64,000 nucleotides of DNA from an uncultured Thermomicrobiales bacterium (lineage in GTDB: Bacteria > Chloroflexota > Chloroflexia > Thermomicrobiales > UBA6265), in assembly GCA_902806335.1 (NCBI GenBank), contig CADCWG010000131.1, positions 16,129-80,128 on the forward strand, written 5' to 3'. The notes beneath the pieces were generated by a model that had not been told where the DNA came from, searched no databases, and saw only the letters and a program-made list of their open reading frames with translations. Shown in pieces: positions 20,905-24,408 of the stretch. Positions within the stretch are counted from its first letter, which is position 1. Each line of letters begins with the position of its first letter. A program made the position numbers and the translations under genes.

Positions 20905-23900
20905 CTATGCCCCCTGGCGCGTGTACAGGTACAGGCCCGGGTCCCGGAAGTCGTCGCCCAGCAGCACGTCGGGCGTCTCCTGACCGACCGGACCGTAGAG
21001 GGTCACGAAGCCGTTCTCGGTGGTGCCGCGGGGCACCCAGACGGCGACGAGCACGTAGCGGGCGCCAAGCAGGACGAGATCGGGGTTGAGGCCGGCTTGC
21101 TCGGCCTGCTCCGCCACCTCGGCCGTGGGCTCGGTGATCTCGCCTTCGGGCACGTACTCGCCGATCACCTCGGCGTCGACGCGCTTGCCGTAGATCCGGT
21201 CCGGCTGGGTGCTCTCCGGGTCGGCGACGTTGAGGATCACGGTAACGCTCGAGTAGACGGAAGGCAGGAACGCCGCACCCCGGCTGTAGCGAACGTCTCC
21301 GGCGCTCACCTGCTGAGCGGTGATGCCGACCGAGAACTCGACCGTGAACGTCACGCCCGCCTCGTAGCGGAAGAGGAAAGGCTGACCGGCCGGCGCGTTC
21401 TCGACCCGCAGGATCAGCACCTCGTTCTGCGGCGCGGTGGAGCTGCTCAGCGCCGTGAACGCTCCCACACACCCGACGCGGGTCAGCTCGCCGGCTTCCA
21501 CAGGGTCGGTCACGATGGCCACCCGGTTGTATGACACACCGCCGAGCTGGATCCGCTGCGGCAGGTTGGCCGGGAACCCGTCCGCCGCGTACTCGCCGAT
21601 GTCGCCGCCGCACGTCCGGATGGCCACGGTCGCGGCGGCGGCCGGCGGCGCGCCCGTCGGCAGTGTGATGACGATCGCGGGGCCCTGCCGGCGCGGCGTT
21701 GCCGTCGGGCTGTCCGGCGCGGCGGTTGGCTGGTTGCCGTCGGCGGCGACAGGGGTCGCCGTGACGGGAGCGGACGTCGGCTCACCGCCCTGGCCCGGCG
21801 TGGTGGGCGCCTGGGTCGCGGCCGGCGCCTGAGTGGCGGCCGGCGCCTGAGTGGCGGCCGCTTGAGTCGCCGGGACCTGCGTCGCGGCCGTCGTCGCGGC
21901 CGGCTGTGTTGCAGTGGTCTGCGTCGCAGCCGCTTCACCGGTGGGCGCCGCCGGCGCCGTACCTTCACCGGTCGGGCAGTCCTCCGGCCCGTCCACGCCG
22001 ATCACGTCGCGGAAGCCGTCCCGCTCGTGCTGCTCGTGGGCCGACACCGCGTTGCGGTTCACCTCGATGTACTCGTAGCGGTTGGTCGCGGACCCGGTGA
22101 CGTGGCAGATACCGACGCGGTCGTTGTCGTTCCCCGGCTCGGTGGTGGGCTGTTGGTCGGCGGCAACGGTTTCGGTCTCGGTCGCCGGGACGGATGTCTC
22201 CGTGGGCGCTAGGGTCGCCGTCGCCAGGACCGCGGTTACCGTCGGGGTTTCGGTGGGCACGGCCGTCTCGGTTGGCGCCTCGGTGGGCACCGCCGTCTCG
22301 GTCGGCGCCTCCGTCGGTACCGGGGTCTCGGTCGGCGCCTCGGTCGGGACGGGGGTCTCCGTGGGCACCGGCGTCTCCGTCGGAGCCGGGGTGGGTGACG
22401 CGGTGGGTTCCGGCGTCTCCGTGGGAACGGGGGTCTCGGTGGGCGCCGGAGTAGGCGACGCGGTCGGTTCCGGCGTGGCCGTCTCCGTCGGTTCCGGCGT
22501 GGCCGTCTCCGTCGGAGCTGGGGTCTCGGTCGGCTCTGGCGTCGCGGTCTCGGTTGGCGCGGGCGTCTCTGTGGGCGCCGGGGTCTCCGTAGGCGCGGCC
22601 GTCTCGGTCGGGATCGCGGTAGCCGTGGCAGCCACGGTCGGCGACGCTGCCTCGGTCGGCTCGACCCCGCCGGTCACCGCGAATCGGAGCACCAGCGTAT
22701 CGATCCGGACGAACACCTCGGTGAAGGGCGGCTCGGCAGTCCCGGGGTCGGCGAAGACCGGGAACGGACCAGCGCAGCCGACCTTCGTCAGCCCTTCGGG
22801 GTCGACCTGCCCCGTCACGTCGTTGTCGAACGTCAGCGTCTGGTCGCCGAAGGGGACGTCCCCGCCGAGCTGGGGCGGGACGTTGTCGGCACCAAGCTGC
22901 ACAAAGCGGAGCAGGCCGTCGGGCACGGCCGCAAACAGCTCGGGGTAGGGCTCTGCCGTGCCCTGGTCCGCGAAGACGGACGCTTCCTCGCCGTTCAGGT
23001 TGATGGTGAAGTTGATCTGCTCCAGGTTGTCCTCGGTGAGGTCGGGTTCCAGCCCCGCGAACCCGTAGGTCGCGCCCTGGATCTGGAGCTGGCTCTGGTT
23101 GAAGACGATCCCGGCCGCTTCGGCCAGACATGCCTCGTCGGTCCCCACCTGCGTGGGGAGATACCGGGCGACCGGCCCGGTTCCGACGACGGCGAACACC
23201 CGATCGGGACCGGAGCCGGCGCCGTAGAGGGTGGCGTCGCCGTCGCTGCCAATCTCGGAGAGGGCACCGGCGTCGATCGGCAGGGCGCGATCAAAGACGT
23301 ACTGCTCGTCATTGGCGGTCACCGAGACCGGGTACCCCTCGGGCAGCCCGGGCGCCACCGCCGCGCCGGATTCGTCCGGAGCTTCCGTTGCGTCGGCGGC
23401 CTCGGTCGGCGTCTCCGCGGTCGGTGATTCGTCGTCGCCGTCCTGCTCCGTCGCCTCGCCGGTCGCCTCGGCGGTCTCGTCGCCTTCCTCGGTCGCGGCC
23501 GCTGTGCCCTCCTCAGTCGCGGCCTCCGTGCCTTCCTCGGTCGCCTCGGTGCCCGCTTCCGTGGCCTGGGCGTCGGCTTCCTCCCCGGCGGGAGCATCGG
23601 ACGCCGTCAGCTGGACGGCGGCGTCGTTGGCGACGAGCACGGTCACCTGCGTGAACGGCCCGTCTTCCTCTCCGTCGGGGGCGTAGGCCGCGAAGGGGCC
23701 GGCACAGCCGACCTTCGTCAGACCGGCGGTGTCGACATCGGCTGTCTGGGCTCCGGAGAGGACCTGGTCGCCGAACGGAACGTCGCCGGCCAGGGCGGTC
23801 GGGACACCGTCGTCAACCAACACGAACCGGTACAGTCCGGCGGGTACCTCGGTAAAGAGTTCGGCCGGCTGGCCCCCGGCGTCCGCCTCGATGAAGATCG

Positions 23901-24408
23901 TGGCCGGGTCGGCACCGAGCTGCCCCGTGCCGGCTTCGGTCAGGATGTCGGTCGTCAGGTCCGGCTCGATGCCGGCGAAGGCGTACGACGCTTGGCCACC
24001 TTCGGCCGTGTCCAACGAGAGGAGCGCGAGGTCGATCTCGTCGGCGGGACAGGGGTTGTCGGGCGCGCCGACGTTCGTGGGCAGATACCGGCCGAGTTCA
24101 TCCTCGGATCGGTTGGGGACCGACACCAGGACCCGCTCGAAGCCGCCCGCCGGCGCCGCGTAGATCTGGACTTCTCCGTCCCGCTGGAGGACCTCCAGGT
24201 CCTGGCGCTCGCCCGGCACGACCCGGTCGAAGATGTACTGGGTGTCGTCGACCGTGACGGCCGGCGGATAGTCCTGCCCCCCCTGGCCCCGACCCTGGGC
24301 GACTGACACGGCCGCCGCCGGCCCGGCGGCGCCGGCCACGAGCGATCCAAGGAGGGCCACGACCGCCATCAGGCGCGGCACCCCAGCCTTACCGGTTCCC
24401 ATCGCCAT
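20905..24408 (-). CDS. Large secreted repeat protein of unknown function
   Basis: ATG 24408 with signal peptide (MAVVALLGSLVAGAAGPAAAVSVAQ); two ~200-aa repeated domains plus a third partial copy sharing G(L/E)LT(K/R)VGC(A/V)G(P/A)F; PTETP and ATQAPA linkers; ICHVTGSATNRYEYIEVNRNAVSAHEQH module. Confidence 0.85.
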   Translation of the reverse strand: MAMGTGKAGVPRLMAVVALLGSLVAGAAGPAAAVSVAQGRGQGGQDYPPAVTVDDTQYIFDRVVPGERQDLEVLQRDGEVQIYAAPAGGFERVLVSVPNRSEDELGRYLPTNVGAPDNPCPADEIDLALLSLDTAEGGQASYAFAGIEPDLTTDILTEAGTGQLGADPATIFIEADAGGQPAELFTEVPAGLYRFVLVDDGVPTALAGDVPFGDQVLSGAQTADVDTAGLTKVGCAGPFAAYAPDGEEDGPFTQVTVLVANDAAVQLTASDAPAGEEADAQATEAGTEATEEGTEAATEEGTAAATEEGDETAEATGEATEQDGDDESPTAETPTEAADATEAPDESGAAVAPGLPEGYPVSVTANDEQYVFDRALPIDAGALSEIGSDGDATLYGAGSGPDRVFAVVGTGPVARYLPTQVGTDEACLAEAAGIVFNQSQLQIQGATYGFAGLEPDLTEDNLEQINFTINLNGEEASVFADQGTAEPYPELFAAVPDGLLRFVQLGADNVPPQLGGDVPFGDQTLTFDNDVTGQVDPEGLTKVGCAGPFPVFADPGTAEPPFTEVFVRIDTLVLRFAVTGGVEPTEAASPTVAATATAIPTETAAPTETPAPTETPAPTETATPEPTETPAPTETATPEPTETATPEPTASPTPAPTETPVPTETPEPTASPTPAPTETPVPTETPVPTEAPTETPVPTEAPTETAVPTEAPTETAVPTETPTVTAVLATATLAPTETSVPATETETVAADQQPTTEPGNDNDRVGICHVTGSATNRYEYIEVNRNAVSAHEQHERDGFRDVIGVDGPEDCPTGEGTAPAAPTGEAAATQTTATQPAATTAATQVPATQAAATQAPAATQAPAATQAPTTPGQGGEPTSAPVTATPVAADGNQPTAAPDSPTATPRRQGPAIVITLPTGAPPAAAATVAIRTCGGDIGEYAADGFPANLPQRIQLGGVSYNRVAIVTDPVEAGELTRVGCVGAFTALSSSTAPQNEVLILRVENAPAGQPFLFRYEAGVTFTVEFSVGITAQQVSAGDVRYSRGAAFLPSVYSSVTVILNVADPESTQPDRIYGKRVDAEVIGEYVPEGEITEPTAEVAEQAEQAGLNPDLVLLGARYVLVAVWVPRGTTENGFVTLYGPVGQETPDVLLGDDFRDPGLYLYTRQGA
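21811..21863 (-). repeat. 18-nt coding tandem repeat (QAPAAT linker)
   Basis: ctgggtcgcggccggcgc / ctgagtggcggccggcgc / ctgagtggcggccgcttg. Confidence 0.7.
22175..22670 (-). repeat. Low-complexity coding repeat (PTETP/EPTAT linker)
   Basis: Long run of PTETPAPTETATPEPTETP... in the encoded protein; DNA consists of near-identical 6/18/36-nt units such as 'gtctcggtcggcgcc' variants. Confidence 0.85.

Follow-up and report, generated by a model that had tools for sequence, protein, structure and literature searches.

A predicted exported repeat protein encoded head-to-head with a secreted von Willebrand A protein in Thermomicrobiales-type Chloroflexota

The window, a stretch of 64,000 nucleotides from the genome of an uncultured Thermomicrobiales bacterium, carries on its minus strand a large gene for a protein built of repeats; a second gene, which diverges from the first, codes for a secreted von Willebrand A (VWA) protein (Table 1). 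The frame of the repeat protein is open from 24642 to 20905, and its ATG at 24408 is followed by VALLGSLVAGAAGPAAA, judged by eye to be a Sec-type signal sequence. The first-pass annotation had likewise described a large secreted protein, and the motifs it quoted are present where it placed them. The modules of the protein are under strong purifying selection: between the congeneric loci L028 and L030, dN/dS is 0.07 and 0.05 in the modules, 0.11 in the C-terminal domain and 0.19 in the linker; the pair L039/L040 gives 0.15 and 0.12. All are approximate values, since they were obtained by the Nei-Gojobori method at a dS of 0.7–1.7. The ratios of 0.05–0.11 in the folded parts of the first pair show that the gene is real.

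Table 1. Features of the repeat-protein locus and its divergent neighbor (positions in the window)
Feature	Position	Strand	Remarks
Repeat-protein gene	20905..24408	-	1167 aa, ATG start; N-terminal Sec-type signal sequence judged by eye
Module 1	23626..24270	-	three units: 24270-24073, 24015-23812, 23793-23602
Acidic T/E/A-rich linker separating the modules	23335..23601	-	read from translation
Module 2	22681..23334	-	units 23334-23149, 23097-22891, 22869-22672; pLDDT 91.5, pTM 0.87
Pro/Thr-rich stalk, (PTETP)n	22120..22671	-	
Insert RVGICHVTGS...AHEQHERDGF...EDC, own Cys pair	21967..22119	-	absent from other members read
Second stalk, Pro/Thr/Ala/Gln-rich	21628..21966	-	
C-terminal domain, 240 aa, conserved	20908..21627	-	first unit is of the third type (21564-21358); pLDDT 91.7
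Two probable divergent units of the C-terminal domain	about 21309-21133 and 21093-20911	-	
Divergent partner, secreted von Willebrand A protein, 422 aa	24808..26076	+	MIDAS motif (DSSGS ... T ... D) intact

Over 217 aligned residues, modules 1 and 2 are 42% identical (E 6e-41), which bears out the earlier reading of two near-complete copies. That reading had also proposed a repeat domain of ~200 aa; the repetition stands, and the repeating unit is of ~65 aa, with three such units making up the block. When the family alignment of the module was cut into thirds and these were compared as profiles over ~60 columns, unit 1 matched unit 2 (P 1.2e-5) and unit 3 (P 2.8e-7), and unit 2 matched unit 3 (P 9.1e-7), with scores of 30–39 against a maximum of ~9 in thirty column shuffles per pair. 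As judged from these profile comparisons, each ~215-aa module is a tandem of three ~65-aa units. Outside its training set, the unit profile recovers a lone unit in L033 (101-166), pairs of units in L029 and L032, and further triplets in L033, L039 and L040; because relatives thus have the unit alone, doubled or tripled, it is the unit, and not just the 200-aa block, that was duplicated. In a tree of the modules, one cluster unites the first modules from the window, L031, L028 and L030, and another the second modules from the window, L031 and L027, indicating that this duplication predates those genera. In L034, the two modules cluster with each other.

All complete modules examined have a cysteine just ahead of unit 2 and another in the GC motif of unit 3; in each C-terminal domain, one lies at the start and a second in that same motif. 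Additional cysteines occur in a few modules. The mature protein of the window has exactly eight, in four local pairs (two in each module, two in the C-terminal domain and two in the insert). The pattern is as expected if the protein is exported and oxidised and each domain has a single disulfide; in the modules this bond would join the cysteine before unit 2 to that of the LTKVGC motif in unit 3, the equivalent pair being available in the C-terminal domain.

The C-terminal region had been taken at first for a truncated or divergent third copy, which it is not: it is a complete, conserved domain of 240 aa, present in nearly all relatives. Only its first 40–65 residues align with the module copies (E 5e-4 to 0.002), while the family profile picks up the region with an E-value of 3e-9, and a profile-profile comparison of unit 3 with its first 74 aa gives a probability of 97.8% and a P of 6.5e-12. 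By these alignments the domain is seen to start with the seventh unit of the protein. Its two later parts match the unit with P of 1e-3 to 4e-3 and scores of 17.6–20.4 against shuffle maxima of 11.9–17.5, and in the structure model described below they have a unit-like strand order with one strand absent; they are probably two more, divergent units. The chain ends inside the conserved domain (...GLYLYTRQGA).

Between the stalks lies the insert, ICHVTGS...AVSAHEQHERDGF...C, with a CH...H..H motif and its own cysteine pair. It has no counterpart in Pfam and is possibly a metal-binding micro-domain; two relatives have similar pieces in proteins other than this one, G018 in two of them and G010. 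At the same site, L030 (9783-13082, aa 626-760) and L037 carry a different domain of ~130 aa with the signature KRFCEAD/NANC, again without a Pfam match; the stalk takes exchangeable inserts.

None of the libraries searched contains this domain, whereas the architecture around it is of a familiar kind. At curated cut-offs, the whole protein matches nothing in Pfam, NCBIfam, PHROGs or PADLOC, nor does Pfam match any sequence in the alignment of the module or in that of the C-terminal domain; the module and both profiles produced chance matches only against the sequences of the PDB, a phage collection searched with the whole protein and a plasmid collection searched with module 2 gave no match, and we found no description of the repeat protein or of its pairing with VWA in the literature searched. 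The initial impression of a domain without a named family is therefore upheld at these thresholds. A scan for promoters and terminators and a search of Rfam yielded nothing informative. The weak Pfam matches to DUF4803 and HUTI fall below their cut-offs, as does Caud_bapl16_3rd (PF20953; cut-off 27 bits), which reaches 20.5 bits in one fragment and less than 14 in two more, and does not match the protein of the window. In layout, the protein resembles the modular, adhesin-like stalk proteins, which, like it, combine a signal for export with repeats of folded modules, linkers of low complexity and a mosaic insert that is not the same from species to species; it differs from them in that its modules match no known domain family. 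It also differs in that no LPXTG motif, SLH domain, lipobox or C-terminal membrane helix is visible that could serve as an anchor; the translation has no wall-anchoring motif and no Pfam SLH match, so that it does not qualify as an LPXTG/SLH-type wall-anchored adhesin.

Structure models were obtained with AlphaFold2 from alignments restricted to the window and related loci (16 sequences for module 2 and 14 for the C-terminal domain). Both are confidently all-beta (module 2, pLDDT 91.5, pTM 0.87; C-terminal domain, pLDDT 91.7, pTM 0.79). Each unit of the module is modeled as six short strands, readable as three hairpins, in an order that is alike among units. A Foldseek comparison with 350,542 PDB chains returned nothing better than an E-value of 0.087 for the module and 0.065 for the C-terminal domain, with TM at most 0.2 in either case, and for the module nothing among viral models was better than 0.027. 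The predicted fold is unmatched among the solved structures searched. The commonest name among the weak matches of the module, a lead only, was Spindlin, a eukaryotic chromatin reader that likewise packs three all-beta, Tudor-like units of 60–70 aa into ~200 aa; unlike Spindlin, the repeat protein is exported, bacterial and without sequence match, and Spin-Ssty membership is contradicted by the lack of a Pfam match at E 1 and by Foldseek values of E >=0.087, probability 0.08 and TM ~0.13, with none of the weak matches superposing. The weak matches of the C-terminal domain included β-propellers (PROPPINs, WD40, olfactomedin), which are also all-beta repeats; propellers, however, have four to eight blades and not three units, and with no sequence match, an E-value of 0.13 at best and TM at most 0.2 the protein cannot be assigned to them.

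The module or the C-terminal domain is present in 19 of 32 genomes searched from the window's own family, Thermomicrobiales-type Chloroflexota, apparently as a single repeat gene per genome, which in some is split over contigs. It was not found in 160 other genomes of the class, nor in samples of 349 and 399 genomes from the rest of the phylum, outside the family. An alignment-based scan of 85,462 species, which rests on two short conserved patterns and may miss distant relatives, detected 13 loci, all in Chloroflexota (several labelled Thermomicrobiales and one Sphaerobacteraceae); a single-protein scan of genome contigs gave no matches.

The divergent partner is a VWA protein by both sequence match (PF00092, 27.4 bits against a cut-off of 23.8) and the MIDAS residues DxSxS, T and D, which are conserved in 13 of 13 aligned partners; VWA domains (PF00092, PF13519) are lacking in the repeat protein. 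The two genes are head-to-head in the window, in 12 relatives with enough flank and also in G026, and the pair is found in all 13 relatives with flank, in at least four genomic contexts. In L027, L028, L030, L033 and L034 the surrounding genes are common with the window, and the adjacency may there reflect nothing more than synteny; other neighbors surround the pair in L032, L035 and L038, where it is still intact. Across the 32 genomes, 18 have both genes, one the repeat gene only, three the VWA gene only and ten neither (Fisher P 4e-5, a value that overstates independence because these genomes are related by descent and many of them incomplete). The single repeat gene without VWA belongs to an incomplete genome, G011. 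G004, G005 and G016 have the VWA gene in its usual context and no detectable repeat gene, which indicates that VWA is not always dependent on the repeat protein and that the latter was either gained beside VWA or lost there. At the corresponding loci L104, L105 and L106 (G005, G004 and G016), VWA lies between genes for a metallophosphatase and a Gfo/Idh oxidoreductase, and these are natural empty sites.

On this basis, we give roughly even chances to the proposal that the repeat protein is an exported, stalk-type modular protein that acts with the VWA protein in adhesion or in assembly of the envelope or matrix. Its all-beta modules, each predicted to be one rigid body pinned by one disulfide, would be held apart by the acidic and Pro/Thr-rich linkers, and the protein would stand outside the cell, or on its surface, as a stalk that cooperates there with the VWA protein encoded head-to-head with it. 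MIDAS sites of integrin-type VWA domains bind acidic residues, and since they generally do so, the VWA metal site may grip an acidic side chain of the repeat protein, a plausible candidate being the Glu of AGxExDLT, a motif of unit 2 in which this residue is invariant. The pair might thereby mediate adhesion or help to build the envelope or matrix.

It is possible, if doubtful, that the repeat protein is instead a stand-alone structural or matrix component, such as a spacer or envelope filler, and that its VWA neighbor does separate work and stays close because of shared regulation. Units that are acidic and vary in number, as structural spacers do, would suit such a role, as would the three genomes that keep VWA by itself, whereas the survival of the head-to-head arrangement through changes in the surrounding genes and the nearly complete lack of repeat genes without VWA speak against it. 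Quite improbable, in our estimation, is that the protein is no adhesin but a scavenger or sensor, with modules that capture a glycan, metal, peptide or other ligand, either soluble or polymeric: the charged residues D15, R16, R57, E96, E132 and R143 are invariant in the compact, all-beta module 2, but where the context changes, no gene for a transporter or sensor was seen to accompany the repeat gene, and no known ligand-binding family or fold is matched. That the frame is a chance or antisense reading, a by-product of high GC, can practically be dismissed, for although other frames also hold long spurious ORFs over the same stretch, the selection test (dN/dS 0.05–0.15) refutes it, and homologues in 19 genomes and the confident models speak against it.

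The adhesion or assembly proposal also has a bolder form, which we consider unlikely: that the 65-aa unit represents a fold, or else a closed three-unit arrangement, that is new and was born in one Thermomicrobiales-type lineage, and that with the MIDAS-bearing VWA protein it forms an undescribed two-component extracellular adhesion system.

Unit and module would together amount to a new protein domain whose boundaries are clean and whose cysteines are conserved; its model is confident and unlike solved structures, which makes it a good target for structure determination. The VWA protein, as a concrete partner, offers a testable idea of how these little-studied, mostly uncultivated Chloroflexota meet surfaces or each other. 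Since it is confined to one lineage, the domain was either born there or has diverged very fast.

The C-terminal ~150 aa of the VWA protein (aa 265-422) are conserved among the partners and match no family, and some genomes contain second VWA matches that do not cover this region. Just downstream of the VWA gene in L035 (2867-4384, minus strand) is encoded an apparently secreted Pro/Thr-rich protein with repeated domains of the type AEDWQGGxYxxDxxYYGRPWxALYG.
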